Shown: piece after piece, positions 31,415 through 47,779 of the stretch
How the letters are laid out: every line of letters begins with the position of its first letter
Position numbering within the stretch: the stretch's first letter is position 1
NCBI RefSeq assembly: GCF_000485905.1
Contig: NC_022664.1
Span: 992,001-1,056,000, forward strand
Origin: Spiribacter curvatus
Lineage (GTDB): Bacteria; Pseudomonadota; Gammaproteobacteria; Nitrococcales; Nitrococcaceae
Length of the DNA: 64,000 nt
Direction: 5' to 3'
The notes under the pieces: model-generated
Seen by the model: the letters and a program-made list of their open reading frames with translations, nothing else
Databases searched by the model: none
Told to the model about the DNA's origin: nothing
Program-made: the position numbers and the translations under genes

Positions 31415-31990
31415 TCAACCCCGCCGAGGTGATCGCAGCAGGCTCATACGGGTCATCACGCCGTCCTTGCGGATGAGCCAGTGATACAGGCCACCCGAGA
31501 TATGCAGGATGAGCAGTCCGATCAGCGCCCAGCCAAGCAGCCCGTGTAACTGGAAAAGGACCGCCGATAACGACTCGTTTTCACCCATTAATGGCGGCAG
31601 CACCCACTGGAAGAAGTTGATCGGGTAGCCGCCGGTGGCCGTTGCCGCCCAGCCCAACACCGGCATTGCAATGAGGCCAATGTAGAGAAGGCCGTGGACA
31701 GCCTCGCTCAGCACCCGCTGCGCCCGATGCTCGATCGGTATCGCGTAATGCGGTCTGCCGTACTTCAATCGCGCAACGATCCGCACCGCCATCAACCCAA
31801 GCAGCAGGACACCGCCGGTTTTATGGAGGACATATAGCGTATTGGTGACACCGGGGCCGAAAACATCAACCGCCCCCTCGAACCCGAGGGTCCCAAGCGT
31901 GCTACCGACCGCAAGCATGGGCAGTACAACCAGCGCCACGCCCCAATGGAGCAGTCGCTGTATAAGCCGATAACGTGGCCAATCAGTCAT
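31415..31990 (-). CDS. Cytochrome b561 family protein
   Basis: A 191-residue inner-membrane di-heme cytochrome b with four transmembrane helices. Candidate heme-ligand histidines are visible in RLLHWGVAL (helix 1), YVLHKTGGVLLL (helix 2), EAVHGLLYIG (helix 3), and LFQLHGLLGW plus LILHISGGLYH (helix 4). The bacterial CybB family oxidises ubiquinol, in E. coli as a superoxide scavenger. I start at MTDWPRYRL (31990). It is 38 nt downstream of the yeiH-like gene and could be the last gene of the sulfonate operon, where an electron-transfer role is imaginable but unproven. Confidence 0.88.
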   Translation of the reverse strand: MTDWPRYRLIQRLLHWGVALVVLPMLAVGSTLGTLGFEGAVDVFGPGVTNTLYVLHKTGGVLLLGLMAVRIVARLKYGRPHYAIPIEHRAQRVLSEAVHGLLYIGLIAMPVLGWAATATGGYPINFFQWVLPPLMGENESLSAVLFQLHGLLGWALIGLLILHISGGLYHWLIRKDGVMTRMSLLRSPRRG

Positions 31991-32028
31991 CGCGCCCCCA
32001 GATAAGCGGCGGTGAGCGAGTGGACGGT

Positions 32029-33087
32029 TCAGCCGGAGACGAGCTGCGTCACCAACGCCGCGCCCATAGCGCCCATAAAAAGCGTCTGAAGCACGATAAC
32101 AGTTATCGGTCGCCAACCGCGCTTGAGCACCTCCCCAATAGAGCTCTGGATGCCGAGGGCCGCCACCGCGGTGATCAGGCAGCCCGTTGACGCGCTGGCC
32201 AGCAGCCCCACTAGCGATCCGGGGATCCAGCCAAGGCTATTGATCAGCACCAGCGCGAGAAAACCGAACAGGAACCAGGGAACCGGCGGGCTCGCGCCAC
32301 CCGGCTCGCCCGCCATGAAATGACGCTTGATCAGCGCCCGGGTTGCGATGGCAAGCGCAATGACAAGCGGGAGCAACATCGCGACCCGCAACAGCTTGAT
32401 CACCGTCGCGATCTCCCCGGAGGACTCGGAGACGCTGAAACCGGCCCCGACGACCTGTGCAACATCATGAATCGTCGCGCCCAGGAATACACCGGCCTGA
32501 ACATCACCCATGCCCATCTGCTGCGCGAAGATCGGATAGACCACCAGTGCAATCGTGCTCAGCGTACTCACACTGACGACAACGATGACGGTATCGAGGT
32601 GGAGCCGGTCATCCCGGGGCAGCGTTGAGGCGATACCGAGCGCAGCTGATGCCCCACAGATACTCACCGACCCGGCGGAAAGGACACTGAACGCCCCCCG
32701 CATTCCGAATAACCGCGAGATGCCATAACCAACGAGGAGTGTCGCCGCCACGACTGAGCAGGTAATGAGTAGCGGCGCAATCCCCAGCGCAGCCAGATCC
32801 CCCAGCGTCAACCGGGCGCCGAGCAACGCGACGCCGACCCGCAGGATCGTTCGAGTGCTAAAGCGAATGCCTTGCTCGAAACTCGGCTCGGCACGTAAGA
32901 AACCGAATGCCATCCCCAGGAGCAACGCAAACAGCATGACGGGCGCTGAATAGTGCGTGGCGAGGAACAAGGCAGCCGTTGCGACCAGCGCACTGACGGC
33001 GACCCCGCGACCAATGCTGCCCACTTGGTGATGGGCAGCGCGGTAGACATCATGGATTGAACGGAAACGGGAGACCGAGTCACTCAT
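32029..33087 (-). CDS. YeiH/TauZ-type putative sulfate/sulfite exporter
   Basis: A 352-residue membrane protein of the UPF0324 (COG2855, YeiH) family with about ten hydrophobic helices; family features include LRVGVALLGARLTLGDL and SVSICGASAALGIAS. Members encoded beside taurine and cysteate degradation genes have been proposed to export the sulfite or sulfate released from sulfonates. Here it overlaps the histidinol-dehydrogenase-like gene by 4 nt (ATGA), so it is coupled to the sulfonate operon. The transported ion is an inference from this context. Confidence 0.85.
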   Translation of the reverse strand: MSDSVSRFRSIHDVYRAAHHQVGSIGRGVAVSALVATAALFLATHYSAPVMLFALLLGMAFGFLRAEPSFEQGIRFSTRTILRVGVALLGARLTLGDLAALGIAPLLITCSVVAATLLVGYGISRLFGMRGAFSVLSAGSVSICGASAALGIASTLPRDDRLHLDTVIVVVSVSTLSTIALVVYPIFAQQMGMGDVQAGVFLGATIHDVAQVVGAGFSVSESSGEIATVIKLLRVAMLLPLVIALAIATRALIKRHFMAGEPGGASPPVPWFLFGFLALVLINSLGWIPGSLVGLLASASTGCLITAVAALGIQSSIGEVLKRGWRPITVIVLQTLFMGAMGAALVTQLVSG

Positions 33088-34406
33088 GCATCGGGGTCCA
33101 TGGCGCCAACCCCCAGGTCAAAGGACTGATCGGGGAAGTATTTCGCCAGCCGGATATCGGCCGTGCGCGCATGGCCCTCCATGCCCTCCAACCGTGATAT
33201 GCGTGCCGTTGTCTGGGCAATGCGCCGCGTCGCCGCCGGCGTCGCTCGCTGCCAGGTCACCGTCTTCATGAATTTGTGCACCGACAGACCGCCAGTGTAG
33301 CGGGCTGCCCCCGAGGTGGGCAGGACGTGATTGGGACCCGCACATTTGTCTCCGAATGCCACTGTTGTTTCTTCGCCCAGAAAGAGTGACCCATAGGTCG
33401 TCAGCCGATCGAGCCACCAGTCGAGATCCCGTGCCTGAACATGTAAATGCTCCGGCGCGAGGCGATCGGACAATCGCGCCAGCTCTTCACGGTCGGAACA
33501 CAGGATGACCTCGGCATAATCCCGCCATGCGGCCGCCGCGCTCTGCCCGTTGAGATCAGGCAGCGAATCGATCTTATCCGGGACCAGCGCCATCACCTTC
33601 TCAGCGATCGAGCGGTCGGTTGTGAGCAGCCAGACCGGGGAGTTGACGCCATGCTCGGCCTGTCCCACCAGATCCCAGGCGACCAGATCGGGATCGGCCT
33701 GATCATCCGCAATCACCAGGCTGTCGGTGGGTCCGGCAAACATGTCGATACCGTATTCGCCATACAGCGTGCGTTTCGCTTCGGCAACGTATTGATTGCC
33801 GGGCCCAACAAGGATATCCGCCGATTGATTCCCGAACAGACCATTCGCCATCGCTGCGACACCCTGCACGCCTCCCAGGTTGAGGATGTCATCAACGCCG
33901 CACAGATCCATGGTGAATACAATCGCGGCCGGAATCCCCTCACCCGGTCGCGGTGGCGAGCAGGCGACCACCTGCCCGACGCCGGCGACCTTAGCGGTGG
34001 TGATGGTCATGATCGCACTCGCGATGTGGCTGTATCGCCCACCCGGCACGTAGCACCCGGCCGCCGCAACTGGAATCTGCTTCTGACCGGCACGCAGACC
34101 CGGAATAACCTCGGTCTCGCAGTTCTGCACCGTCTCAAGCTGCGCCTCGGCAAAGCGGCGGATATTAGCATGAGCAAAGCGGATTTCGTCCTTGAGTGAT
34201 TCCGGCAGGGAATCGGCCGCGGCCTGGCGCGCTTCGTCGCTCAGGCGTATGTCCCCTTCCCACTGATCGAGCTGACGGGCGTACTTCTGAACGACTGGCT
34301 CACCGCCTTCGCGGATCTCATTGAGCATCCGCTCGACGGTATCGCGGACATCACTGCCACCGGTATGCGCGTTTTTCGATGCTTTTTTCAGGTATTCGAT
34401 TGTCAT
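33084..34406 (-). CDS. Histidinol dehydrogenase-like sulfonate dehydrogenase (HpsN type)
   Basis: A 440-residue HisD-family enzyme. The catalytic set is intact: zinc ligands in VGQAEHGVNS, Asp in FGDKCAGPNHVLPTSGAARY, His in GMEGHARTADIRL, and the Glu-His base in APEHLHVQARD. No other his gene is nearby, and the gene is locked between tauC and a sulfur-anion exporter, so a role in histidine synthesis is unlikely. The HisD family includes HpsN, which oxidises dihydroxypropane-sulfonate to sulfolactate. HisD oxidises an amino alcohol to an amino acid, so oxidation of cysteinolic acid to cysteate is another option. I start at MTIEYLKKASK; the open frame upstream lies in tauC. Confidence 0.85.
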   Translation of the reverse strand: MTIEYLKKASKNAHTGGSDVRDTVERMLNEIREGGEPVVQKYARQLDQWEGDIRLSDEARQAAADSLPESLKDEIRFAHANIRRFAEAQLETVQNCETEVIPGLRAGQKQIPVAAAGCYVPGGRYSHIASAIMTITTAKVAGVGQVVACSPPRPGEGIPAAIVFTMDLCGVDDILNLGGVQGVAAMANGLFGNQSADILVGPGNQYVAEAKRTLYGEYGIDMFAGPTDSLVIADDQADPDLVAWDLVGQAEHGVNSPVWLLTTDRSIAEKVMALVPDKIDSLPDLNGQSAAAAWRDYAEVILCSDREELARLSDRLAPEHLHVQARDLDWWLDRLTTYGSLFLGEETTVAFGDKCAGPNHVLPTSGAARYTGGLSVHKFMKTVTWQRATPAATRRIAQTTARISRLEGMEGHARTADIRLAKYFPDQSFDLGVGAMDPDA

Positions 34407-34420
34407 CCAACTACTCGCTA

Positions 34421-35320
34421 TTACATCCGCCCTTTCCAGGGCACTAGTTTCTTTTCGGTCATCCGCATCGTTGTATCGAACAGGTAGGCAATCGCCGCGA
34501 TCACCACAATCCCCATAATGACCGTCGAGGTCTGCAGGAACTGACTGGCGGATAGCACCATATAGCCAAGCCCCTCGGTTGCCGCCACCATTTCCGCAGC
34601 CACGAGGGTTGTCCAACCGAAACCGACACCAATGCGCATTGAGGTGAGGATCTCCGGTAACGCGGAGGGCAGGATGACGTAGCGCATGACCTGCCAGCGA
34701 CTGGCGCCGAACGAATAGGCGGCGTGGATCTGTTCAATCGCCGCCGAGCGCACACCGGCGCGAGCACCCAGCGTGACCGGGGCAAAAATGGAGAGGAAGA
34801 TCAGTAACACCTTGGAGGTTTCGCCGATGCCAAACCAGATGATCATCAACGGCAGATACGCCAGCGGCGGGATCGGCCGGTAGAACTCGATCGGCGGGTC
34901 GAATATCCCCCGCACCAGCGGACTCATGCCCATGGCAAGACCGAGCGGAATCCCGATCGCGCACGCCAGTGCGAACGCACCAAAGACACGAGCGGTTGAT
35001 ATTGCGACGTGATGCACGAAGGCGGTATTCGTAAAGCCTTGATCGATGATCTCGAAGAACTTGGCCACCGTGGCCTGGGGTGAGGGCATGAACAGCGGCT
35101 CTACCCAGCCAAGCGTTGTGACCATCCACCAGAAGAACAGGAACGTCATCACCGACCCAATGGACAGCCACAGTGTCTCGCCCTGACCGGGCACGCCGTA
35201 GGTCTCACCGGGCCGTGTCGCCCGACTGCGCATCAGGCGGGATAAAAAACCGCTTCTAGCGGCGGGGGGAGTGACTCGGAAGTCGGTCTCCGATTGGGTT
35301 CTCTGGGAATCGTCCATCAT
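34421..35320 (-). CDS. tauC: Taurine/sulfonate ABC transporter permease
   Basis: A 299-residue binding-protein-dependent permease with six predicted membrane helices and the EAA-type loop YSFGASRWQVMRYVILPSAL. The segment FYRPIPPLAYLPLMIIWFGI is typical of the nitrate/sulfonate/taurine (SsuC/TauC) group. A hydrophilic N-terminal extension of ~45 residues precedes helix 1. Two adjacent ATGs (35320, 35317) overlap the tauB stop. Expected to form a homodimer with two TauB subunits in the inner membrane. Confidence 0.92.
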   Translation of the reverse strand: MMDDSQRTQSETDFRVTPPAARSGFLSRLMRSRATRPGETYGVPGQGETLWLSIGSVMTFLFFWWMVTTLGWVEPLFMPSPQATVAKFFEIIDQGFTNTAFVHHVAISTARVFGAFALACAIGIPLGLAMGMSPLVRGIFDPPIEFYRPIPPLAYLPLMIIWFGIGETSKVLLIFLSIFAPVTLGARAGVRSAAIEQIHAAYSFGASRWQVMRYVILPSALPEILTSMRIGVGFGWTTLVAAEMVAATEGLGYMVLSASQFLQTSTVIMGIVVIAAIAYLFDTTMRMTEKKLVPWKGRM

Positions 35321-36108
35321 GAAACGGCCTCTTCCTGGTCCGCGAAAACAATCTCCAGAACCTTCTCACGAAGGTCGATGAATTCCTGGGACGCCTTGAC
35401 GTCGCGGGCGCTCTGCCCGGCGAGAAACCGACGTGAGAACGGCATGTCGAAACGGTAGGTGATTCGACCGGGACGCGGTGACATGACAATCAACTTGGTG
35501 CCCATGAAAATCGCCTCCTCGACCGAGTGAGTGATGAGGAATACCGATTTATGGGTATCGTTCCAGACCCGGAGGATCAGCTCCTGCGCTTTCTCACGCG
35601 TCAGCGCGTCGAGCGCGCCGAGCGGCTCGTCCATCAGCAGTATCTTGGGGTCACAGGCCAATGCGCGGGCAATACCGACGCGCTGTTGCATGCCGCCCGA
35701 GAGCTTATAGACCGGTGATTCGATGAATTCTGTCAATCCGAGGAGCTTGATGAATTCAAGCGCGGCCTCGTTGCGCGTCTTCTCGTCGTATCCCTGTAGC
35801 TTGAGTCCGAACGCAACATTGTCGATAACGTTGAGCCACGGCAGCAGGGCGTGTTTCTGGAAGACGACGGAACGATCCGCTCCAGGGCCCGATATCGGGT
35901 CGCCGTCCAATAGCACCTCACCCGCTGTTGGTGCCAGAAAGCCCGCAATCACATTAAGCAGCGTGGATTTCCCGCATCCGGATGAACCGAGCGCCACGAC
36001 GAAGTCATCATTCTCCATCGTGAGATCCACATCCTTGAGCGCCTCTACCGGTGCGTTACCGTCGCTCGCGGGGTAAACGATGGAAGCATTTCTGATATCC
36101 AGTCCCAT
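35317..36108 (-). CDS. tauB: Taurine/sulfonate ABC transporter ATPase
   Basis: The 263-residue ATPase carries Walker A GSSGCGKSTL, Q-loop VVFQKHALLPWL, signature KLSGGMQQRVGIARAL, Walker B KILLMDEPLGALDAL and the H-loop ITHSVEEAIF. The HALLPWLNV and PRPGRI stretches are typical of the TauB/SsuB group. It follows tauA after a 63-nt gap that holds a strong stem-loop, and overlaps tauC. Confidence 0.93.
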   Translation of the reverse strand: MGLDIRNASIVYPASDGNAPVEALKDVDLTMENDDFVVALGSSGCGKSTLLNVIAGFLAPTAGEVLLDGDPISGPGADRSVVFQKHALLPWLNVIDNVAFGLKLQGYDEKTRNEAALEFIKLLGLTEFIESPVYKLSGGMQQRVGIARALACDPKILLMDEPLGALDALTREKAQELILRVWNDTHKSVFLITHSVEEAIFMGTKLIVMSPRPGRITYRFDMPFSRRFLAGQSARDVKASQEFIDLREKVLEIVFADQEEAVS

Positions 36109-36171: not shown

Positions 36172-37161
36172 TTATTCCAGAACGTCGTTTACGATGCTGA
36201 GATTGACGAAGGGCGAGTAGTCGGCACGGGCTCCATCAATTCGTCCCGCCGCCGAGAGGAATTCCGATGTCCCCTGCAGCGTTCCCGCGGCACTACCCAG
36301 CCATGTATCGGTCGCCTGCTCCTCGAGCGGTAGGAATACGAACCCCTCGAGAATGCCAGGGATCTGCTCAGGCGCCGCTCCCGTCAACGAGGAAATGGTC
36401 TGAACGGACTGACTCTCCGGGGTGAAAGAGGATGGATCGGAGTAGTACGCCGAATTGGCCTCATTCATCGTCGCTGCGAATGCAGCCATGCTCTCGGCGT
36501 TATCGGCGGCAAACCCGGAGTCGACGACCCAGCCATCAAACGTCGGGTTGCCCCATTCAGCCGTCTGATCGGCACCGACAAGCAACTCGCCGCTTTCACG
36601 GATCTGGCTCTGGACCGGCTGCCAGATGAAAGCTGCGTCAACGGCGTCCTGCTCCCACGCCGCAGCGATCTGATCCGGCGGCATATTGATGATGTTGACA
36701 TCACTCTCGTCAATGCCGGCCTCGTTCAGCGCTCCCATCAGGGAGAAATGCGCGGTTGAGCCGACCGGCACGGCAACCCGCTGGCCCTGTAGGTCGGCGA
36801 GGTTCTCGATGCCGGTGCCATCGCGAACAATCAGGCTCTCAGCCTCTCCAATGACCTGCGCCATCATGAAAAGCTGTACATCCACGCCCTGGCTGGCGGC
36901 AATCGCCAGGGGCGCTGACCCGAGTTCAGAGATCTGGACATCTCCTGAGGCCAGTGCAGCGATTACATCGGTGCCCGAGCCAAATTCCCGCCATTCGATA
37001 TCCCAACCCGTCGCATCAGCGAACGCCGCATCGGCACGGGCCACCTGCATGGGGGTCGGATTGCCGAAGTGACCGATGGTCACGGTTTCAGCCGCTGCAA
37101 CGCCAGCGGCAACGGAAAGGGCCATCCCGGTGAAAACTGAATGTCTTACTCGCATCATCAT
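36172..37161 (-). CDS. tauA: Taurine/sulfonate ABC transporter substrate-binding protein
   Basis: A 329-residue periplasmic binding protein with a Sec signal peptide (cleavage near GVAAAE). The mature part follows TauA closely: TIGHFGNPTPMQVARADAAF, EFGSGTDVIAALASGDVQI, LGSAPLAIAASQGVDV, GQRVAVPVGSTAHFSLMGAL and PPDQIAAAWEQDAVDAAFIW. The protein is acidic. The exact ligand (taurine, cysteate, cysteinolate or another sulfonate) cannot be read from sequence. A GGGAGAAG site precedes the first of three ATGs, and the start overlaps the racemase stop by 4 nt. Confidence 0.92.
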   Translation of the reverse strand: MMMRVRHSVFTGMALSVAAGVAAAETVTIGHFGNPTPMQVARADAAFADATGWDIEWREFGSGTDVIAALASGDVQISELGSAPLAIAASQGVDVQLFMMAQVIGEAESLIVRDGTGIENLADLQGQRVAVPVGSTAHFSLMGALNEAGIDESDVNIINMPPDQIAAAWEQDAVDAAFIWQPVQSQIRESGELLVGADQTAEWGNPTFDGWVVDSGFAADNAESMAAFAATMNEANSAYYSDPSSFTPESQSVQTISSLTGAAPEQIPGILEGFVFLPLEEQATDTWLGSAAGTLQGTSEFLSAAGRIDGARADYSPFVNLSIVNDVLE

Positions 37162-37949
37162 TGGGCTTCTCCCGTCGATTGATTATCTGCATCCGAAACG
37201 TGCGGATGTTCTGAGACTGGCGGTTCGTTATTGGCCGCCATTGGCTCATTCGCGTCTCCACGGAACGCGAATTCGACGACGCCCTCGACCAGACAGTCGA
37301 GCGCATCAAATGCAGTGACACGGGGAGAGACCGCATCAGCAATAAGCGAGAATTCGGTACAGGCAATGAGCTGGGTGACTGCACCCGCCTCGAGCAGCGA
37401 CTCGGACAGTGCCTGGAATGCGGCGCGTGATGAGGGTGTTGGTCCGTCCGCCTTCACCGACTTGATGACATTCAGCAGCGCCTCACGATCATCGGGGTAG
37501 ACGGGCGTTAGACCGCGCTCACGCAATGGGCCCTCGTAGAGCGCGATCGTCTCCACCGCCGGCGAGGCCAGGATCCCCACTTTTCCGCCCGCGCCCACGA
37601 GCTCACTGGCATGCGCGGCGGCAAGCGCCACCATATCGAGGAAAGGCACATCCACCGCGCGACGGATCGCCACCGCATATCGATGCGCCGTATTACAGGG
37701 CATGGCCAGCGCGGTGGCTCCTGCCTGCTGGAGTCGTTGCGCCGTCACTGCGAGCACCGGCGCCGGATCATCACCATGACCCTCGATCAGATGGGCGATA
37801 CGTGAGGGGACCTGCGGATTCTGATCGACGATCAACGGAACATGACCGGCATCGTCGCGGGAAGGTACGGCGTCAATAAGGCGTTGCATGAACAACACCG
37901 TCGCCGCCGGTCCCATGCCACCCAGAATGCCGATGCGCCGCGGGATCAT
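37158..37949 (-). CDS. Aspartate/glutamate racemase family protein
   Basis: A 263-residue cofactor-independent amino-acid racemase. It starts RRIGILGGMGPAATVLFM and has both catalytic cysteines of the two-base mechanism: Cys85 in AMPCNTAH and Cys197 in LIACTEFS. A polar, acidic tail of ~35 residues after the catalytic domain is extra relative to E. coli YgeA. Cysteate is the sulfonate analogue of aspartate, so in this operon a D/L-cysteate racemase is a natural reading; it is inferred, not shown. It overlaps both neighbours by 4 nt. Confidence 0.85.
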   Translation of the reverse strand: MIPRRIGILGGMGPAATVLFMQRLIDAVPSRDDAGHVPLIVDQNPQVPSRIAHLIEGHGDDPAPVLAVTAQRLQQAGATALAMPCNTAHRYAVAIRRAVDVPFLDMVALAAAHASELVGAGGKVGILASPAVETIALYEGPLRERGLTPVYPDDREALLNVIKSVKADGPTPSSRAAFQALSESLLEAGAVTQLIACTEFSLIADAVSPRVTAFDALDCLVEGVVEFAFRGDANEPMAANNEPPVSEHPHVSDADNQSTGEAQ

Positions 37950-39175
37950 GACAACGCCCCCGCGAAGGGTAGACGCTCGACCGCGGCCCGGATGTGCGCT
38001 GCAATCAGGTCACAGTCATCGTCATCGAGCGTCAGCGGCAGACGCAGGTCGATCAAACCATCGAGCACATTACGCGTCTGCGGCAGCAACTGCGGCGGCA
38101 GATATGCCCAGCTATCGTAATTCGAGGTATAGCCCACCGGTTCACTGGCTCCGAACCACTTGAGGGCAACGCCGCGTTCAGCCGCATCACTGACCAAGGC
38201 CTCGCCCTGCGCCGCGGTCATACCCGGAACCGCGAACCGAAGCGACGAGCCGACATAGCCCTCTTGTGGCGCGCGCCGCGGCAGGTGAATGCGGGCTGAC
38301 TGCGCGATGCCCGTGGCAATCCGATCGTGGATCCGGTTCCAGCGACGGATGTTGGACTCGAGCCTCGGCAGCTGCGGTCGCAGCATGGCGGCCCTGACAT
38401 TGTCCATGCGAGCCGACATGTTCGGCGTGCTCAGGCGTACGTCGTTGAAGACCGCCAGTGGAGGCCTCGCGCCGTGGCGCTCGTAGAGCATATAGGCGCC
38501 GGATAGCAGAATGGCGCGCGCCATGAACTCGGGATCGGCGCTGGTCAACAATCCACCTTCACCCGAGTTGAGGTGTTTGTAACTCTGTGTCGAAAAACAC
38601 CCTGCCCGACCAAAATTCCCGGAACGGATTCCCCGCCACGTCGCACCCATGGTGTGCGCACAATCCTCTATCACTGTGAGCCCGGCCTCATCCGCGAGCT
38701 GCATCAACGCGTCCATATCGCACTGATGCCCACGCATGTGAGAGAGCATCAGGACCTTCGCCTGATCAGCCTTCCGCGCCAGGTCATCCAGATCGATGAC
38801 CAGGTCTTCATTGATCTCCACGAGCCGCGCCTCGGCGCCGACTGCCGCAATCGCACCGGGGACCGGGGCAAGCGTGAAGGCATTGGCCAGGACGGGATCA
38901 CCCGGCCGGACCCCGGCTGCCCGTAGTGCGATCTGAAGCGCCTGTCCACCGGAAGCGAGTGCCAGGCAGTAAGGTCTGCCCTGCCAGTCGGCATACTCCC
39001 GCTCGAGGGCTGAAGCTTCCGATTCCTCGCCCGGGACGGGCTCGTAGCGATGGAGCCGGCCCGATTCGAGCACCGCATTGACCGCGTCGATCGCTTCCTG
39101 TGGCAGTGGTTCCTGACGGGTCAGATCGCCGGTAAAACGTGGCAATGCAGGCATGGGAGCGTCAGTCGATGACAT
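37946..39175 (-). CDS. DegT/DnrJ/EryC1/StrS family aminotransferase
   Basis: A ~409-residue fold-I PLP enzyme with [37 protein letters not shown], the cofactor Asp in [13 protein letters not shown], and the PLP lysine in [16 protein letters not shown]. Most relatives aminate nucleotide or keto sugars, but no sugar-modifying or polysaccharide gene lies near; all neighbours are sulfonate genes. A sulfonate keto/amino intermediate (for example sulfopyruvate or sulfoacetaldehyde) is a possible substrate. I start at [14 protein letters not shown] (39175), overlapping cuyA by 14 nt; a second ATG is at 39154. The open frame upstream lies in cuyA. Confidence 0.82.
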
Positions 39176-40178
39176 CGTGGTCGGCTTCCAGAGACTGCGT
39201 ATACCCGAACAGCGCGGCAGAGCCGCCGGTATGAAGGAATACGATGCGCTCTCCTTCCTTGAAGTAGCCCTTACGGCAGTAATCGATGAGTCCCGCGGCC
39301 CCTTTGCCGGAATAGACAGGATCGAGCAGGATGCCCTCCAGCTCGGCAAACAGGCGAATCGCCTCGATCGTATCCTCGCGCGGGATGCCGTACCCCTCGC
39401 CGACATATTCCGTGTCGGCAACGACATCCTCCCGCTCGACGACGCCGGGACAGCCCAGTTTCTCCGCGGTTTTCAGGGCAAGCTGATAGACGTTTTCCTC
39501 TTGCTTGGGTTTGGGCGCCCGCACGCCAAAACCGAGCAACGGGATTCGTGCGTTAATGGCCTTCAGACCCGCGATCAGACCGGCCTGCGTCCCGGCACTT
39601 CCCGTCGCTGTCACCAGATGATCAATGACCAGGCCACGGGCGTTCGCCTGACCAAGGAGTTCATAGGCGCAATCCACATACCCCAGCGCTCCGGTGGGAT
39701 TGGAGCCACCGCCCGGGATGACGTACACCCTGCGGCCCTCGGCCCGATACCGCTCAGCGACCGCCTCCATTTCGGCATGCATATCCACGCCGCCCGGCCG
39801 TGTCTCGCTGCTCGCCCCATGAAGGTGATCGAGCAGGACGTTGCCGTTGTGGTTGTAATCGGGGTTTTTAGAACCAGTCCGGTTTTCGAGCAGAAGATGA
39901 CAGTCGATACCTAGCTTCGCGGCAAACGCCGCTGTCTGGCGAGCGTGATTCGACTGAGTCGCGCCCTGGGTCATCACGACATCAGCACCCTCAGCCTGAG
40001 CCTCCGCCATCAGGAACTCGAGCTTGCGTGTCTTATTTCCCCCGGTCGACATGCCCGTGCAGTCGTCGCGTTTAATCCAGATCTCGGGTCCACCCAGCGC
40101 GGCCGAGAGGCGGTCCAACCGCTCCAGGGGCGTTGGCAGGTGGGCGAGGAACAGGCGAGGGAAACGGGCCAGGTGCAT
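39162..40178 (-). CDS. cuyA: L-cysteate sulfo-lyase (CuyA-like)
   Basis: A 338-residue fold-II PLP enzyme of the D-cysteine desulfhydrase/ACC deaminase family. The N-terminus [19 protein letters not shown] and the PLP segment [19 protein letters not shown] (cofactor Lys ~49), followed by [15 protein letters not shown], match what I recall of CuyA, which splits L-cysteate into pyruvate, sulfite and ammonium. D-cysteine desulfhydrase is the main alternative, but the tauABC, racemase and exporter genes in the same operon favour cysteate. It is the first gene of the operon, has a GGAGAA site, and is divergent from a LysR gene. Confidence 0.82.
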
Positions 40179-40283: not shown

Positions 40284-41222
40284 ATGAAACTCAACTGGCT
40301 CGAAGATATTCTCGCGATCGCGGACACCGGTTCACTGTCGAAGGCGGCGGAGCGGCGCAACCTGACTCAATCAGCTTTCTCTCGACGGATCCGTGCCATT
40401 GAGGATGTGCTTGGCGTTGAACTGCTTGATCGCACCAAAAAGCCGACCCAGCTCCTGCCCGGCGTCATGGCACACCGAGAGCAATTCGCCCGGCTGGATA
40501 CCGACCTACAGCAACTGATCGCGGATCTTCGCTATGGCAGTCGGGTGGAGCAGAACCAGATCGCGATCGCCAGCCAGCACTCGCTCACCACAGTGTTCGC
40601 GCCACGGCTCATCCAGCGGCTGCAACAAGGCGCCAGCGATCTGAGTGTGCGACTTGCATCAGAGAATCTCGACGAGTGCATTGGATCGCTGCTTGCCGGC
40701 AGGACCGACATGGCACTCATCTATCGCCACCTCGGCGACCAGGATCCCGTGATCAAGGCGGGGTATATCCGAAGCCGCCTGGTCAGCTCCGATCGATTGA
40801 TCCCGGTTTTCGGCACAAGCGGCATCAATCCGCTCGAGGATGGCGGTCGCCTGCCCATCATCAATTACCCGAGCAATGTCTATCTCGGGCGGATATTCAA
40901 TCGCGCAATACTGCCCCGACTGCGCAACGAATACACAATGGACCTGCGTGTTCAGACATCCCTGACACTAGCGGCGCTGGAGCTCGCCGAGAACAGCAGC
41001 GGGATCGCCTGGATTCCGCAATCCATCGCTGAATCAAAGATTGACGCCGGTTCGGTGGCGGATCTGTCGTATCGTCTACCGACATGTGAACTGGACGTCG
41101 TCGCATTAAAGTTAGTCGACAATGCCCGCGCCGCGCTGGGAAAAGCCTGGTACGAACTTGGCCGAATCACGCCGCCCGTCAATAATGCCCGCCCTTCCCC
41201 AAACACGCCTTTTCCCTGGTGA
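40284..41222 (+). CDS. LysR family transcriptional regulator of the sulfonate operon
   Basis: A 312-residue LysR regulator: N-terminal winged helix LAIADTGSLSKAAERRNLTQ then SAFSRRIRAIEDVLGVELLD, linker helix, and a periplasmic-binding-protein-like effector domain (residues ~90-295). It is divergent from cuyA across 105 bp, so it most likely controls the operon in response to a sulfonate or a breakdown product. It converges with yajD, ending 7 nt from it. Confidence 0.88.
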   Translation: MKLNWLEDILAIADTGSLSKAAERRNLTQSAFSRRIRAIEDVLGVELLDRTKKPTQLLPGVMAHREQFARLDTDLQQLIADLRYGSRVEQNQIAIASQHSLTTVFAPRLIQRLQQGASDLSVRLASENLDECIGSLLAGRTDMALIYRHLGDQDPVIKAGYIRSRLVSSDRLIPVFGTSGINPLEDGGRLPIINYPSNVYLGRIFNRAILPRLRNEYTMDLRVQTSLTLAALELAENSSGIAWIPQSIAESKIDAGSVADLSYRLPTCELDVVALKLVDNARAALGKAWYELGRITPPVNNARPSPNTPFPW

Positions 41223-41610: not shown

Positions 41611-42357
41611 TCAAACGCAACGCCCGCCATCGACCTCCAGGCAGGCACCCGTCACGAAGTTGGCCTCGTCACTGGCGAGGAAAAGCGCCGCATTGGCGAT
41701 ATCCAGCGGCTGGCTGAGCCGCCCCATGGGGATCCCGCTGATGATCCTGTCGCGGGTATTGTCACCCAGGAATTCATCAATCAGCCCAGTCTCGCCCATC
41801 ACCGGATTAATCGTGTTGACGCGGATGTTCTCCGGCGCGAGCTCGACGGCCATTGATTTCCCCGTGATGATCGCAGCTCCCTTACTGCCGTTGTACCACG
41901 TCAGCCCCGGTCGCGGACGCAGTCCCGCCGTCGATGCGATATTGACGAAGCAGCCTGCCCCCCGGGCCCGGAACACTGGCACCGCCGCCTGGGCGGTGTG
42001 ATAGAGCGATTTCACATTAATCGCATACACCCGATCGAAGAGCGACTCATCGACATCCAGCATCGGCCCGTTGCGATGGGTGATACCGGCATTATTCACC
42101 ACGATATCCAGGTCCCCGTAGTGCTCGGTAGTGTGATCCACGAGGCTTTGCACAGATCCCGCTTCGGCGACATCGGCATGGACGTAGATGGCCGTCCCCC
42201 CATCAGCGCGGATGGCATCTGCAACGCTCTCACCGTCGGCATCGTTGATATCCGCAACCACCACATGGGCGCCTTGCTCGGCAAAACGCCTGGCAATGGA
42301 CTCTCCAAAGCCAGACGCAGCACCCGTTACAATCGCGATCTTACCCGCCAGTCTCAT
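41611..42357 (-). CDS. SDR family oxidoreductase (FabG-like), tetronate operon
   Basis: A 248-residue classical short-chain dehydrogenase: NAD(P) motif TGAASGFGESIAR, NNAG at residue ~89, catalytic Ser in VNIASTAG, and Tyr-Lys in TWYNGSKGAA. The acidic VVADIND after beta-2 suggests NAD+ preference. It is the last gene of the tetronate/TRAP run, 37 nt after dctM, and probably oxidises or reduces a further hydroxy-acid or polyol that feeds the pathway. The substrate is unknown. Confidence 0.88.
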   Translation of the reverse strand: MRLAGKIAIVTGAASGFGESIARRFAEQGAHVVVADINDADGESVADAIRADGGTAIYVHADVAEAGSVQSLVDHTTEHYGDLDIVVNNAGITHRNGPMLDVDESLFDRVYAINVKSLYHTAQAAVPVFRARGAGCFVNIASTAGLRPRPGLTWYNGSKGAAIITGKSMAVELAPENIRVNTINPVMGETGLIDEFLGDNTRDRIISGIPMGRLSQPLDIANAALFLASDEANFVTGACLEVDGGRCV

Positions 42358-42394: not shown

Positions 42395-43672
42395 TTACTG
42401 ATACATCAAATCGACGAATCCCAGACTGATCACTGGGACAAATGTCACGAGTAGCAGACAAATGATGGCCACCAACACAAACTGCAGCAACCAAGGGATC
42501 ATTCGCTCCAGAGAGAGCCCTGCCACAGCGCAAGCGGCGAAGAGGTTGACGCCCAACGGCGGCGTAAACATCCCGATTGCCAGGTTCACCACCACGATCA
42601 GGCCGAAATGCACCGGATCCACCCCAAAGCTGACCGCCACGGGGGCGAGGATGGGGGCGAGGACCAGGATCGCAGCCGATGTCTCGATAAACATGCCGAC
42701 GAACAACAGCAGCACGTTGACCGCCAGCAGGAATGTCCAGACGCTGTCGAAGTTGGCGTTGATCCAGGCGCCTACGTCGGCGGGCAAGCCGGAACGGCTG
42801 ATCAGGAAACTGAACAATCCCGCCGCGGCAATGATGAGCATGATCGCCGTTGTGCCTTTGACACTCGTCACGAAAATCGGCCAGAGATCCCGCCAACTGA
42901 GTTCCCGGTAAACCACCAGCCCGACAAACAGGGCATAGAAAACCGCGACGGCAGCCGCTTCCGTTGGCGTGAAGACCCCGCCATAGATGCCACCAATCAC
43001 CAATACCGGCATCAGTATCGCCGCCCAGGCCTGGGAGATGGCTCTGCCCAGCGAGTCCCGCTCTGCGCCGTCTTCAGTCCCCAGCCCCTTGATCTTGCAG
43101 ACGACGTAGAGAAACAGAATCATCGCCGTGCCGAACAGCAGTCCCGGGCCGATGCCAGCGATGAAGAGCTGGCCGATGGACGTATCAGTGCTGACGCCAT
43201 AGAGGATCAACGGAATCGATGGTGGCAGAAGCACGCCAAGCTCCGCCGAAGAGGCCTGAATCGAAGCCGCCAGCGGCCGCGGATAGTGGTGACGCACCAT
43301 CGCCGGAATCAGAATCGCACCAATCGCATAGGTGGTCGCGACGCTCGAGCCTGATACGGAGGCGAAAAACATGCAGGTCAAAACGCAGGAGCAGGCCAGC
43401 CCCCCCTGCACGCCGCCAATGATGGATTTCGCGAGTTCAACCAGACGGCGCGATATACCGCCGCCGGCCATCAGGTTCCCGGCGAGGATGAAAAACGGGA
43501 TCGCCATCAGCGGGTAGTGGTCGATGCTCACGAACAAGCGCTGTGCGGCCACGATGAGTGGAAGGGGCGAGAAAAAGTGCACGCCGAACATCGACGCCAG
43601 TGCGATCGATACCGCAATGGGGACCGCCAGAACAAAGAGAACAATCAACGCGGTGGCAATGGCAGCATTCAT
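42395..43672 (-). CDS. dctM: TRAP transporter large permease (DctM)
   Basis: The 425-residue large subunit of a TRAP transporter has about 12-13 hydrophobic helices and family motifs AIPFFILAGNLMAGGGISRR, SGSSVATTYAIGAILIPAM and LLPPSIPLILYG. It catalyses sodium-driven symport of the ligand delivered by DctP. It starts 2 nt after dctQ. The transported compound is likely a C4 sugar acid from the neighbouring genes. Confidence 0.94.
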   Translation of the reverse strand: MNAAIATALIVLFVLAVPIAVSIALASMFGVHFFSPLPLIVAAQRLFVSIDHYPLMAIPFFILAGNLMAGGGISRRLVELAKSIIGGVQGGLACSCVLTCMFFASVSGSSVATTYAIGAILIPAMVRHHYPRPLAASIQASSAELGVLLPPSIPLILYGVSTDTSIGQLFIAGIGPGLLFGTAMILFLYVVCKIKGLGTEDGAERDSLGRAISQAWAAILMPVLVIGGIYGGVFTPTEAAAVAVFYALFVGLVVYRELSWRDLWPIFVTSVKGTTAIMLIIAAAGLFSFLISRSGLPADVGAWINANFDSVWTFLLAVNVLLLFVGMFIETSAAILVLAPILAPVAVSFGVDPVHFGLIVVVNLAIGMFTPPLGVNLFAACAVAGLSLERMIPWLLQFVLVAIICLLLVTFVPVISLGFVDLMYQ

Positions 43673-43674
43673 AG

Positions 43675-44193
43675 TTACAAGGCCTCCGCGCGATCGTCGT
43701 GCATGGCTGGATCAAGCAACCGGCCCACCAGCGCGATCATTGTGAACACGCTCCCCACCGGCAGGGCGGAGTAAGCCCATGCGATGGAAACATCCATGCC
43801 CGCCATGCGCTGTGGCTGGACACGCAATCCCATCTGATAGCCGTAATACGCGAGGAGAACAAAAAACAATAGGGAAAGGCCGGTGATGAAATACTCCAGC
43901 CCGATGTGCACACGCGAGGGTATGACCGCGAAGATCACTTCGACGCGCATCATCTCATTACGGCGGAATACGTTGGCCGCACCCAGGAACACGCTCCAGA
44001 TCACCAGCGAGCGCGATGCAACCTCCGAGAAGTGCGACGGGTCGTTGAACACGAACCGGGTAATGACCTGGTAGAACGCAGCGGTCGCTGCCAGCGCCAG
44101 CATGGAAACGGCAAGGATCAGGGCAACGCGGGTTGTCACCCGCTCTACGGCCAGTACGCCGTTGCGAACCGAATTGAACAGAGGGGCGCTCAT
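43675..44193 (-). CDS. dctQ: TRAP transporter small permease (DctQ)
   Basis: A 172-residue membrane protein with four helices, carrying the small-permease pattern FLGAANVFRRNEMMRVEVIF and an N-terminal helix VALILAVSMLALAATAAFY. I start at ATG 44193 (MSAPLFNSVRN), which has a GGAG site; an in-frame TTG at 44199 is less likely. It precedes dctM and follows dctP in the usual P-Q-M order. Confidence 0.9.
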   Translation of the reverse strand: MSAPLFNSVRNGVLAVERVTTRVALILAVSMLALAATAAFYQVITRFVFNDPSHFSEVASRSLVIWSVFLGAANVFRRNEMMRVEVIFAVIPSRVHIGLEYFITGLSLLFFVLLAYYGYQMGLRVQPQRMAGMDVSIAWAYSALPVGSVFTMIALVGRLLDPAMHDDRAEAL

Positions 44194-44223
44194 CGGCAAC
44201 TCCAGGAAATTCGCTGAATCAGT

Positions 44224-44247
44224 CGCCGGGGTTCAATGACCCCGGCG
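44224..44247 (-). promoter_or_regulatory. Intercistronic stem-loop after dctP
   Basis: A perfect 8-bp GC stem (CGCCGGGG/CCCCGGCG) with an 8-nt loop lies 17 nt behind the dctP stop and about 30 nt before dctQ. No T run follows in the transcription direction. As with the tauA hairpin, it probably sets a higher level of the binding protein than of the membrane subunits. Confidence 0.7.
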
Positions 44248-44264
44248 CTGTGTCTCAGGCGGGC

Positions 44265-45236
44265 TCAGTCCTCGAAGTTCTGAATCCGATTGAGCATCTC
44301 GGTGCCGTATTCATCCTTAAAGGACTCGTAGACCGGTTCAATGGCGTTCTGGAAAGGCGTCTTATCGACGTCTTCGACCACTGTCATGCCATTTTCCCGG
44401 AGTAGATCCAGTCCCTCGGTCTCGAGGCGTGAAACCTCTTCACGCGTCGCTTCTGCTGAAGCTTGAGCGGCCTGGTTGAACCAGTCCCGCTCCTGCTCCG
44501 TCAGCTCGCTCCACAGAACGCCCGAGCCGAGCACGGCCGCTGGTGAGTAGACATGCCCCGTCAAGCTGATGTGGTCCTGCACCTCCCAGAACTTGGTGGC
44601 GACAATCACCGTAACCGGGTTTTCCTGCGCGTCCACCGTTCCCTGCTGCAGTGCGGTAAAGAGCTCGGGGAAGGCCATTGGCGTCGGGCTGGCGCCCAGC
44701 TCCTCGAAGGCGTTCATGTGCACCTGATTCTCCATGGTGCGGATCTTCATCCCGTCCACATCTGATGGCTCCTGGACCGCGTTGCGGGAGTTGGTCATGT
44801 GACGGAATCCATTTTCCGACCAGGCCAGTCCAATGATGTTGTGCGGTTCCATCTTGGCAAGCAGATCGTCACCGATCTCACTATCGAGCACCGAGCGCGC
44901 ATGCTCGTAGTCACGAAACAGGAAAGGCAGGTCAAGCACATAGGTCTCCGGCACGAAGTTGCCGAGCGGCCCGGTCGAGGTGATCACGGCATCGACGGTG
45001 CCAATCTGCAGACCCTCGATCATGTCGCGCTCGCCGCCCAGGGAGCCGGCCGGATGCTCACGCACAGTGAACTCGCCATCGCTCACTTCCTCCAGCGTCT
45101 CTTTGAAGGCATCTGCGCCGACGCTGTAGTGAGAATCATCGGAGAGCGTGTGACCGAGCTGGATCTCGCGGGCCTCTGCGGCACCGCCCAGTATCAACAA
45201 TCCGCAGGCTGCGGCTGATAGATGCTTAAACTTCAT
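44265..45236 (-). CDS. dctP: TRAP transporter substrate-binding protein (DctP)
   Basis: A 323-residue periplasmic protein with a signal peptide (cleavage near GGAAEA-R) and TRAP features: IQLGHTLSDDSHYSVGADAF, GGERDMIEGLQIGTVDA, GLAWSENGFRHMTNSRNAVQ, then DVDGMKIRTMENQVHMNAF, with the ligand-carboxylate Arg in KIRTMEN. In this operon it probably binds D-erythronate, L-threonate or a related C4 acid. It is separated from denD by 91 nt without a visible terminator. Confidence 0.92.
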   Translation of the reverse strand: MKFKHLSAAACGLLILGGAAEAREIQLGHTLSDDSHYSVGADAFKETLEEVSDGEFTVREHPAGSLGGERDMIEGLQIGTVDAVITSTGPLGNFVPETYVLDLPFLFRDYEHARSVLDSEIGDDLLAKMEPHNIIGLAWSENGFRHMTNSRNAVQEPSDVDGMKIRTMENQVHMNAFEELGASPTPMAFPELFTALQQGTVDAQENPVTVIVATKFWEVQDHISLTGHVYSPAAVLGSGVLWSELTEQERDWFNQAAQASAEATREEVSRLETEGLDLLRENGMTVVEDVDKTPFQNAIEPVYESFKDEYGTEMLNRIQNFED

Positions 45237-45327
45237 GGTCTCCTCCAGAAGGTTGGTTGTATCACCACTTGTTGTGGCTTCGCCGGTGATCCGTCCGAGC
45301 GACGAATCACCAATGCTCTTTGCTTTT

Positions 45328-46326
45328 TTATTGCGGGCTCAGAAAGTCATCTTCCATGAATGCTTTAATGATCGAGTGAATATCCGGATCGCCGGCAAAT
45401 CCCAGTCCCCTCGCCTTTTGATGATCGAACCGCGCTGGCCAGCTCCCAACGATTGCCTCAATGCGTGGGTCCGGCGCCGGCTCCACCCGCGCCCGTGCTT
45501 CGGAGCCGCCCACGTACTCGAGCGCCTCGAGCATCTCACCGACCTGCACCGTGCACCCCGGCAACATCACACTGCGCCAGGCGCCGAATTCATCACCACC
45601 GATGCTCACCGCATGGATCATGTTATCGATCACGCCACGCGGGGATAGCAGATAGAGTGAGCGGCTCTCAGGCACCGGCAGATAGGCGGTTTCCCCCTGA
45701 AGGGGCTCACGGATGATGCTGCTCGCGAAGCTGGATGCTGCCGCGTTCGGCCGGCCGGGCCGCACCGCGATGGTCGGCAGCCGGAGCACCCGACCGTCGA
45801 TCACGCCGCGGCGGGAAAAGTCATTGATGAGCTGCTCGCCGATGACCTTCTGCGCACCATAGCTACTCTGCGGTGTGAGCGCCGTTTGGTCACTGACGAT
45901 AGTCGGCAGCGTCCCGCCATAGACCGCCACGGAGCTCGCAAAGATCACCATCGGCGGCCTGGGCAGATTTCGGCAGGCCTCCAATAGGGTCCGCGTTCCA
46001 TCGAGATTAACTTTCAGGCCCAGGTCAAGATCGGCCTCGGCGGCTGAGCTCACGACGGCTGCAAGATGAATCACAAGATCCACGGAATCGCCGAGCAACT
46101 CCCGCAGATCATCGCCGGCCGTGATATCGCCCAGTTGGGTCGTAACCACCGGTTGCGCACCCTCAACAGCAGATACGTCGGGCACGGCCGGCGTGACTAC
46201 GTCAAACAGCCGAAGCTCTTCCACCGCCCGCGGCCCCAGTGGCGTCATCAGCGTTGCGCCTGTGAGTAACCGAGCGGCGAGCTTCTGTCCGAGAAATCCG
46301 GCAGCGCCAGTAATGACGACTTTCAT
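45328..46326 (-). CDS. denD: D-erythronate dehydrogenase
   Basis: A 332-residue extended SDR with VVITGAAGFLGQKLAARLL, IHLAAVVSSAAEADLDLGLK, VNLDGTRTLLEACRN, and the YxxxK of SSYGAQKVIGEQL. DenD oxidises D-erythronate to 2-oxo-tetronate with NAD+. The FLGQKLA start, the SSAAEADLDLGLKVNLDGT stretch and the otn context distinguish it from UDP-sugar epimerases. The start overlaps the otnI stop (ATGA). Confidence 0.9.
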   Translation of the reverse strand: MKVVITGAAGFLGQKLAARLLTGATLMTPLGPRAVEELRLFDVVTPAVPDVSAVEGAQPVVTTQLGDITAGDDLRELLGDSVDLVIHLAAVVSSAAEADLDLGLKVNLDGTRTLLEACRNLPRPPMVIFASSVAVYGGTLPTIVSDQTALTPQSSYGAQKVIGEQLINDFSRRGVIDGRVLRLPTIAVRPGRPNAAASSFASSIIREPLQGETAYLPVPESRSLYLLSPRGVIDNMIHAVSIGGDEFGAWRSVMLPGCTVQVGEMLEALEYVGGSEARARVEPAPDPRIEAIVGSWPARFDHQKARGLGFAGDPDIHSIIKAFMEDDFLSPQ

Positions 46327-47144
46327 GCACTTACGCCTTTATGGTTCAACCATTTCGATGCCCAATCCAATCCTTCGAGCGTGGTGGCAGCGGGGCGATA
46401 CTCACAACCCACCCAACCGGCATAGCCATCACGATCGAGGACGTCGAGCACCCACGCCCAATTCACCTCACCGTTGGCGTCGGGCTCCTGTCTGCCTGGT
46501 ACGCCCGCAATCTGGATGTGCGCTGTTTCGGACAGATACTCATCAATCGCGTCACTCAAGCGCCCCTCAAGCATCTGTCGGTGATAGAGATCGAGTTGAA
46601 GGGCAATGTTCTGAGCGCCACGTTCACCGGCGACGCGGCGTGCCCTGTGAATGAGATCCAGAGCCTGTCCGGCGCGGCGGAGGAAATAACCCGGCATATC
46701 AATGGGGTTGATTGGTTCGATCAACAACGACACGCCGGCCGCCTCCGCCTGCGTTGCGGCATAGTGGAGATTCGCCAGATACGTCATCTCAACCCGGGCA
46801 GGGTCGGCGTGCACAGGCGCGATGCCTGCCATCATGTGAAGCTGGCGGCATTGAAGGCGCTCGGCATACGACAGGCCCGTCGCGACGCTTTCGCGGAATT
46901 CAGCTTCCCGGCCAGGGAGGCAGGCGAGTCCCCGGTCACCCGCTTCCCAGTCACCCGGCGGTAGATTGAACAGCACCTGGGTCAACCCATTCGTTTCGAG
47001 CGCGGCTGCGATGTCCGCGGCCGCGTGTTCATAGGGGAAGAGATACTCAACGCCACGGAAGCCGGCTTCGGCCGCAGCGGCAAACCGATCCATGAACGGG
47101 TGCTCGGTGAACATCAAGGAGAGATTAGCGGCGAGACGGGGCAT
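46323..47144 (-). CDS. otnI: 2-oxo-tetronate isomerase
   Basis: A 273-residue TIM-barrel protein of the hydroxypyruvate-isomerase (Hyi) group in the xylose-isomerase-like superfamily. Seen: RLAANLSLMFTEHPFMDRF, VLFNLPPGDWEAGDRGLACL, the catalytic Glu in LLIEPINPIDMPGYFL, LQLDLYHRQMLEG and VGCEYRPAATT. OtnI converts 2-oxo-tetronate to 3-oxo-tetronate for OtnK. It shares one base with the otnC stop (TAATG) and overlaps denD. Confidence 0.9.
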   Translation of the reverse strand: MPRLAANLSLMFTEHPFMDRFAAAAEAGFRGVEYLFPYEHAAADIAAALETNGLTQVLFNLPPGDWEAGDRGLACLPGREAEFRESVATGLSYAERLQCRQLHMMAGIAPVHADPARVEMTYLANLHYAATQAEAAGVSLLIEPINPIDMPGYFLRRAGQALDLIHRARRVAGERGAQNIALQLDLYHRQMLEGRLSDAIDEYLSETAHIQIAGVPGRQEPDANGEVNWAWVLDVLDRDGYAGWVGCEYRPAATTLEGLDWASKWLNHKGVSA

Positions 47145-47779
47145 TACGGCCTCCCGAAATTCGATTGCAGGGAGGCAACCTGCGCCTCGGTCAGTGTGCG
47201 CGGGTTATGACCGCGAAGCAGTAGATGCAGCTTCGCGGTCTCCTCGAGCTCCTCGGTTGCATAGACGGCCGCCTCCAGATTCTTGCCCGCTACGATCGGC
47301 CCATGATTAGCGAGCAGGACGGCTGCATGCCGGCCGGCAAGGCCGCGAACGGCATCACCGATCGCCGGGTCGCCCGGCTCGTGATACGGGATCAGCGGGA
47401 GCGTCCCCACCCGCATGACGTAGTAGGCAGTGAGCGGCGGTATGCAGTCATGTGTATCGATATCCGGCAGACAGGACACAGCGACGGAATGTGTGGAGTG
47501 CAGATGGACAATCGCCTCGGACTGCGGCCGTTCGGCGTACATCGCCGTATGCAGGGGGTATTCCTTGGTCGGCGCGTCACCGTCGATATGACGGCCCGCC
47601 GCGTCCAGGCGCGTCAGCCGCGCCGGATCCAGGCGCCCCAGGCAGGCGTTGGTCGGCGTCATGAGCCAGCCGTCATTGAGACGTACCGAGATATTACCGC
47701 TGGAGCCCATGGTCAGCCCCCGGTCGAAAAGAGACTGCGCCAATGTGCAGATCTGTTCACGCAGGGCGGTTTCATTCAT
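47144..47779 (-). CDS. otnC: 3-oxo-tetronate 4-phosphate decarboxylase
   Basis: A 211-residue class-II aldolase/adducin-fold enzyme with the zinc histidines in AIVHLHSTHSVAVSC and a further His in LLANHGPIVAGKNLEAAVY; the substrate loop is TMGSSGNISVRLNDGWLMTP. OtnC decarboxylates 3-oxo-tetronate 4-phosphate to dihydroxyacetone phosphate. I start at ATG 47779, which has a GAGGTG site and overlaps the otnK stop (ATGA), rather than a GTG at 47785. Confidence 0.9.
   Translation of the reverse strand: MNETALREQICTLAQSLFDRGLTMGSSGNISVRLNDGWLMTPTNACLGRLDPARLTRLDAAGRHIDGDAPTKEYPLHTAMYAERPQSEAIVHLHSTHSVAVSCLPDIDTHDCIPPLTAYYVMRVGTLPLIPYHEPGDPAIGDAVRGLAGRHAAVLLANHGPIVAGKNLEAAVYATEELEETAKLHLLLRGHNPRTLTEAQVASLQSNFGRP

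Follow-up and report, generated by a model that had tools for sequence, protein, structure and literature searches.

A putative cysteate racemase of the CuyB family in a sulfonate operon of Spiribacter curvatus

In the DNA of Spiribacter curvatus analysed here (a stretch of 64,000 nt of contig NC_022664.1, in the following called the window) a gene for a two-cysteine racemase of the Asp/Glu superfamily lies close to cuyA and to genes for a taurine-type transporter. This arrangement raises the question of which amino acid is racemized, which enantiomer would be handed on, and from which sulfonate the substrate would be formed.

The racemase gene and its conserved residues

The racemase ORF starts with an ATG at position 37949 on the minus strand, encodes 263 aa and spans exactly 37158..37949. 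It shares 4 bp with the stop of an aminotransferase gene on one side and 4 bp with the start of tauA on the other, as expected from the preliminary description, which had placed it between these two genes with overlaps. The ORF is a real gene and no chance reading frame, as seen from its matches to Pfam PF01177 (129.5 bits, cut-off 31), to the aspartate racemase 1jfl, which is the closest solved structure by sequence (125 bits over residues 4–229), and to NCBIfam NF052483 (racemase_CuyB, "cysteate racemase"; 276.4 bits, cut-off 190, model positions 1–225 of 225). NF052483 and the corresponding CuyA model, NF052482, are curated equivalog models from NCBIfam release 20.0. The asp_race subfamily model was passed as well (118.9 bits, cut-off 93.1), but the CuyB model scored higher by 157 bits. 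Judged by these scores, this PLP-independent enzyme very probably racemizes cysteate and belongs to the CuyB family, which had been named before. A second Asp/Glu-type racemase is encoded in the genome outside the window (1082723–1083394); with 101.8 bits it stays below the CuyB cut-off.

Both cysteines pointed out in the preliminary description are present, in the motifs AMPCNTAH (residues 82–89, Cys85) and LIACTEFS (residues 194–201, Cys197), and from the sequence we infer that they form the catalytic pair. Together with Asp42, Arg50 and Lys166 they are invariant in 29 of 29 aligned sequences, the one from the window included. Among 25 relatives below the CuyB cut-off, most of which we take to be of the YgeA type, Thr replaces Cys85 in 18, Ile replaces Arg50 in 17 and Cys replaces Lys166 in 19. 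Cysteate as the substrate does not follow from the cysteine pair by itself, because the aspartate racemase 1jfl has both residues too. In aspartate racemase the cysteines are presumably catalytic, and the counterparts of Arg50 and Lys166 presumably bind the side-chain carboxylate; by analogy, Arg50 and Lys166 are proposed to act as anion binders in the window enzyme.

The earlier statement that no cysteate racemase had been described is out of date, since CuyB is already in print: besides its entry in NCBIfam release 20.0 it is named in passages of PMC11382572, according to which it interconverts L- and D-cysteate (J Bacteriol 2009 and J Biol Chem 2024 are cited there).

The operon and the genomic partners of the racemase

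On the minus strand, the gene order is cuyA, aminotransferase, racemase, tauA, tauB, tauC, HpsN-type dehydrogenase, exporter, and these genes are probably transcribed as a single unit. CuyA, a PLP-dependent D-cysteate sulfo-lyase (39162..40178), reached 548.2 bits with NF052482 (cut-off 450). The aminotransferase is of the DegT/DnrJ/EryC1/StrS type (37946..39175; PF01041, 190 bits); the ATG chosen as its start gives 409 aa and a 14 bp overlap with the end of cuyA, and the longest ORF begins further upstream. A predicted importer of amino-sulfonates consists of a tauA-like substrate-binding protein (36172..37161; TIGR01729, 315.2 bits, cut-off 304.25), a tauB-like ABC ATPase (35317..36108; NF008421, 331.6 bits, below the cut-off of 357) and a tauC-like ABC permease (34421..35320; NF007545, 325.7 bits, below the cut-off of 342). 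The HpsN-type, histidinol-dehydrogenase-like protein (33084..34406; 440 aa from the chosen ATG) is followed by a putative sulfite/sulfate exporter of the YeiH family (32029..33087; PF03601, 211 bits; TIGR00698, 142.5 bits, below the cut-off of 232.6). A divergent LysR-type gene on the plus strand (40284..41222; PF00126 and PF03466) is a candidate regulator of the operon, and a similar divergent gene accompanies cuyA at 7 of the 20 named loci.

The exporter gene is overlapped by an ORF for a cytochrome b561-like protein on the same strand (31415..32116; PF01292, 86.4 bits), whose membership in the operon is uncertain; that it takes part in sulfite oxidation is no more than a guess. Pfam and NCBIfam models found no hpsO, hpsP, slcD or ComC gene in the operon. 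The host genome has no Ldh_2 protein (ComC-type sulfolactate dehydrogenase) and no match to Xsc over the cut-off (240.9 bits versus 676.4), and it encodes four 2-hydroxyacid dehydrogenases above 130 bits and two FAD-oxidase_C proteins above 150 bits as SlcC/SlcD candidates. The nearest SDR, at 41611–42357, was considered as HpsO and rejected: it is only 32–39% identical to SDRs from hps settings (9 pairs reported), 15 of which are at least 66% alike, and it adjoins a D-erythronate operon. In this operon (42395–49062, minus strand), TRAP-type genes, represented in the scan by the binding protein, lie next to genes for D-erythronate dehydrogenase, 2-oxo-tetronate isomerase, 3-oxo-tetronate 4-phosphate decarboxylase and 3-oxo-tetronate kinase (45328–49062), all four of which are over their NCBIfam cut-offs.

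The preliminary description had proposed a search for genomes in which the racemase adjoins cuyA. Among 20 named relatives, found by peptide patterns of the window racemase, so that close relatives are favoured, and compared over stretches of different length, cuyA is adjacent to the racemase gene or one gene away in 19; the genome of the single exception (L017) has no CuyA over the cut-off. A broader sample comprised 196 genomes of the order Rhodobacterales, centred on a Roseicyclus mahoneyensis genome that was picked for having CuyB. In this sample CuyB exceeded the cut-off in 42 genomes and CuyA in 59; 40 genomes have both, 2 only CuyB, 19 only CuyA and 135 neither (Fisher odds ratio 142, p 1e-24). 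In 29 of the 42 genomes with CuyB, cuyB lies within 3 kb of cuyA. Eight of these 29 linked cases have a gap of 1247–1264 bp with room for one gene, and all four of the eight that were examined contain a DegT-type gene there. The lack of co-occurrence that had been named as refuting evidence did not arise, and together with the score of the CuyB equivalog model the strong association with CuyA supports cysteate as the likely substrate, as originally suggested. CuyB is not required wherever CuyA occurs: of the 59 Rhodobacterales genomes with CuyA, 19 lack CuyB over the cut-off, and so do 6 of the 8 CuyA genomes found among 274 genomes of the host's class. One locus of this class (genome G265) has cuyA, HpsN-type and DegT-type genes in a row, with no cuyB in the stretch and none over the cut-off in the genome; dehydrogenase and cuyA therefore also travel without the racemase.

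Among 54 plasmid records with a match, 8 regions were examined. In five of them the upstream gene is annotated as D-cysteine desulfhydrase, with at most one gene between it and the racemase. In Leisingera methylohalidivorans, one of these five, a similar operon consists of cuyA, aminotransferase, cuyB, hisD and exporter genes and lacks tauABC. In the other three, from Ruegeria pomeroyi, Pseudomonas sp. MPC6 and Peptoclostridium, cuyA is absent from the examined stretch. Since the racemases of these three stretches nevertheless pass the CuyB cut-off, the model may reach beyond cysteate. On the plasmid of Pseudomonas sp. MPC6 a hisD-annotated gene, an aminotransferase, a TRAP transporter, CuyB and a sulfate-exporter-type gene occur together, with no annotated cuyA in the stretch. 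The racemase gene of the Peptoclostridium acidaminophilum plasmid (L073, 6001–6687; 241 bits with the CuyB model) has genes for a glycyl radical enzyme and the corresponding activating enzyme close by and possibly serves a route for another sulfonate or for an amino acid. In R. pomeroyi DSS-3 the match is SPO_RS20085 (WP_011241846.1; 274.8 bits, cut-off 190) on megaplasmid NC_006569 (59846–60544; L070, 8001–8699). The cuyA gene SPOA0158 is on the same megaplasmid, as judged by its locus tag given in passages of PMC4334477, and is not among the neighbours of SPO_RS20085.

CuyB over the cut-off occurs in only 2 of 274 genomes of the host's class, compared to 42 of 196 in the Rhodobacterales, and the order from LysR to hisD recurs on three alphaproteobacterial plasmids. 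Horizontal transfer on grounds of composition was rejected, with a GC content of 61.2% in the operon and 62.1% in the window. Transfer of the operon is still suggested because of the rarity in the host's class and the common gene order.

An HpsN-type dehydrogenase in two kinds of neighbourhood

The dehydrogenase encoded at 33084–34406, whose counterpart in related plasmids is annotated as hisD, is 64.9% identical to HpsN of R. pomeroyi (RpHpsN; 8wwe, (R)-DHPS dehydrogenase), 57.8% to HpsN of C. pinatubonensis (CpHpsN; 8v35, sulfopropanediol 3-dehydrogenase) and 33.2% to the genome's own hisD product. For CpHpsN, passages of PMC11382572 describe His126 and Lys353 as binding the sulfonate and Glu318, His319 and Asp352 as catalytic. 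The window enzyme keeps all five residues (CpHpsN numbering), whereas the true HisD of the genome has Tyr at both sulfonate positions. The substrate contacts named for CpHpsN are kept, with Thr for Ser226 as in RpHpsN. Because of the identities to HpsN and the kept sulfonate-binding residues, which are Tyr in the true HisD, the protein is very probably a C3-sulfonate dehydrogenase.

The association of such genes with cuyB is not restricted to the window. At least 20 of the 42 Rhodobacterales cuyB genes have an HpsN-type gene within 6 kb, which is a lower bound, since it was drawn from 142 rows among the matches listed, with eight rows at 377–387 bits left out; this includes at least 7 of the 13 cuyB genes without cuyA within 3 kb. 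Sixty loci were compared (21 linked genes and 39 others, among them the cuyA locus of G265), with neighbours labelled by our own clustering of ORFs, which misses genes common to fewer than four loci. The HpsN-type gene is in a cuy setting in 22 loci, in an hps setting in 20 and in neither in 18. The hps loci contain a DctM-like TRAP gene (16 of 20), an SDR (19) and two further clusters, c4 (17) and c6 (16), which by our reading of the sequences would be an ADH and a LacI regulator, and this gene set matches the order hpsR-KLM-N-O-P of R. pomeroyi reported in passages of PMC4334477. None of these four clusters was found in the 22 cuy loci, and the clustering revealed neither hpsO/hpsP-like genes nor a TRAP transporter there. 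Conversely, tauA-like genes occur in 5 of 22 cuy loci versus none of 20 hps loci; tauB-like genes are also present in two hps loci. That c22, which by its sequence would be an Ldh_2 protein, is missing from all 22 cuy loci carries little weight, because c22 is found in only 6 of the 20 hps loci. A second, unlinked HpsN-type gene was among the matches listed for 7 of the 21 genomes with a cuyB-linked gene, and it is in an hps setting in all six examined.

A tree of 64 rows unites 16 genes from hps settings with RpHpsN and two others in one clade (support 100/98), from which all 23 cuy-linked genes are absent. The remaining four hps-setting genes are outside, one with CpHpsN and three apart on a long branch; Met is present at position 126 in 3 of the 20 hps-setting genes. 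The window dehydrogenase belongs to a clade that includes RpHpsN and excludes CpHpsN (97/97). The cuy-linked genes are several lineages rather than one clade (12 label changes in the tree), and DHPS activity may therefore be ancestral to all. Between cuy-linked and hps-linked enzymes 21 alignment columns differ. Columns 45 and 205 among them correspond to NADH adenine contacts in CpHpsN, and none of the 21 is a substrate contact named in the two papers on HpsN.

Proposed routes, alternatives and known systems

We regard it as highly probable that the gene is cuyB and encodes a cofactor-independent two-cysteine cysteate racemase that makes D-cysteate for CuyA, with export by the YeiH-type protein. 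One thiolate (Cys85 or Cys197) would take the alpha hydrogen off L-cysteate and the other cysteine would give a proton back on the opposite face, while Arg50 and Lys166 would hold the sulfonate as their counterparts in aspartate racemase hold the carboxylate. Cleavage of D-cysteate by CuyA of the same operon would yield pyruvate, ammonia and sulfite; the sulfur oxyanion would leave through the YeiH-type pump.

An aspartate racemase, or one of broad specificity, that merely sits in a sulfonate operon would account for the solved structures closest to the protein being aspartate racemases, for the passing of asp_race and for the conservation of the residues presumed to bind a side-chain carboxylate. 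We consider this quite improbable and reject aspartate racemization as the primary function, since the score with the CuyB model is much greater and the linkage to cuyA and the HpsN-type gene is systematic; the second racemase of the genome could do the aspartate job. Even less credence is due to the preliminary proposal that the racemase opens environmental D-cysteate to an L-specific CuyA. The original name of the enzyme, L-cysteate sulfo-lyase, which stands in the title of a 2006 paper among the references of PMC11131964, speaks for it, but later work gives D-cysteate as the preferred substrate of CuyA (passages of PMC11382572), and NCBIfam calls NF052482 D-cysteate sulfo-lyase. With this preference of CuyA, the racemase is more likely to supply CuyA from L-cysteate, so that the stereochemistry assumed in the first reading is turned round to a conversion of L- to D-cysteate.

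How L-cysteate would arise depends on the dehydrogenase. We are evenly divided on whether it is an ordinary R-DHPS dehydrogenase, so that an SlcC/SlcD-like enzyme encoded elsewhere would oxidize R-sulfolactate, the DegT-type or a general transaminase would convert sulfopyruvate to L-cysteate, and CuyB and CuyA would finish the route. The two relatives that have been characterised, RpHpsN and CpHpsN, act on DHPS, and the grouping of the window protein with RpHpsN in a clade that excludes CpHpsN makes DHPS activity the simplest inheritance; the conserved substrate contacts agree with this, and the 2-hydroxyacid dehydrogenases and FAD-oxidase_C proteins of the host leave a sulfolactate dehydrogenase possible. 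However, the operon is devoid of hpsO, hpsP, slcD and ComC and the genome of Ldh_2, no cuy-linked gene falls into the hps-cluster clade with RpHpsN, and six genomes keep an hps cluster together with a separate cuyB-linked copy. More tentatively, the enzyme may be a cysteinolate dehydrogenase within a full cysteinolic acid route. Cysteinolic acid is 2-amino-3-hydroxypropane-1-sulfonate; cysteinolate is a hydroxymethyl taurine, and for this reason it fits the taurine-type transporter, by which it would be imported. The HpsN-type enzyme would then oxidize the amino alcohol to L-cysteate, as histidinol dehydrogenase makes histidine, followed by conversion to D-cysteate by CuyB, cleavage by CuyA and export of sulfite by the YeiH protein; the DegT-type enzyme might link cysteinolate with 3-hydroxy-2-oxopropanesulfonate. 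In passages of PMC11382572, CpHpsN was crystallised with L-cysteate in the active site, bound like the product R-sulfolactate, and L-cysteate inhibits the enzyme (IC50 2.4 mM). An HpsN-type enzyme that makes L-cysteate would start from cysteinolate. Such an oxidation would explain the direct pairing of the dehydrogenase with a cysteate racemase and fits with the absence of Ldh_2 from the host genome.

The racemase is an added member of a recently named family, and this finding is itself largely known; the genomic setting of cuyB with an HpsN-type dehydrogenase may be new. For R. pomeroyi DSS-3, whose CuyB is called unknown in passages of PMC11382572, SPO_RS20085 can be named as a candidate. 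If the cysteinolate route is true, the utilization of cysteinolic acid by bacteria would have genes assigned to it; the compound is a common sulfonate and osmolyte of algae and, according to passages of PMC8703288, widespread in microalgae. The passages of literature on cysteinolic acid considered here name no gene for its breakdown, which is not a claim that none is in print.

Compared to known systems, the window racemase has in common with the CuyB family (NF052483; named in passages of PMC11382572) the score over the cut-off, CuyA as genomic partner and both cysteines. Its C-terminal tail after residue 228 falls outside the model match, and no feature excluding membership was found. The aspartate racemase 1jfl belongs to the same superfamily and shares both cysteines, the GGMGP start, the counterparts of Arg50 and Lys166 and the NPQ motif; it differs in having Phe where CuyB has Asp42 and Thr-Thr-Gly where CuyB has Ser129-Pro130-Ala131, and linkage to cuyA is a feature of CuyB, unlike 1jfl-type enzymes. 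The YgeA-type Asp/Glu racemases, to which most of the relatives below the cut-off were assigned, are members of this superfamily as well. The dehydrogenase shares its catalytic and sulfonate-binding residues and its high identity with HpsN (R-DHPS 3-dehydrogenase), but its gene sits with cuyA, cuyB and tauABC in place of hpsKLMOP. The lack of hpsO/hpsP neighbours in the operon lowers the case for HpsN membership but does not exclude it, because HpsN genes without these neighbours exist in SAR11, as described in passages of PMC11131964.
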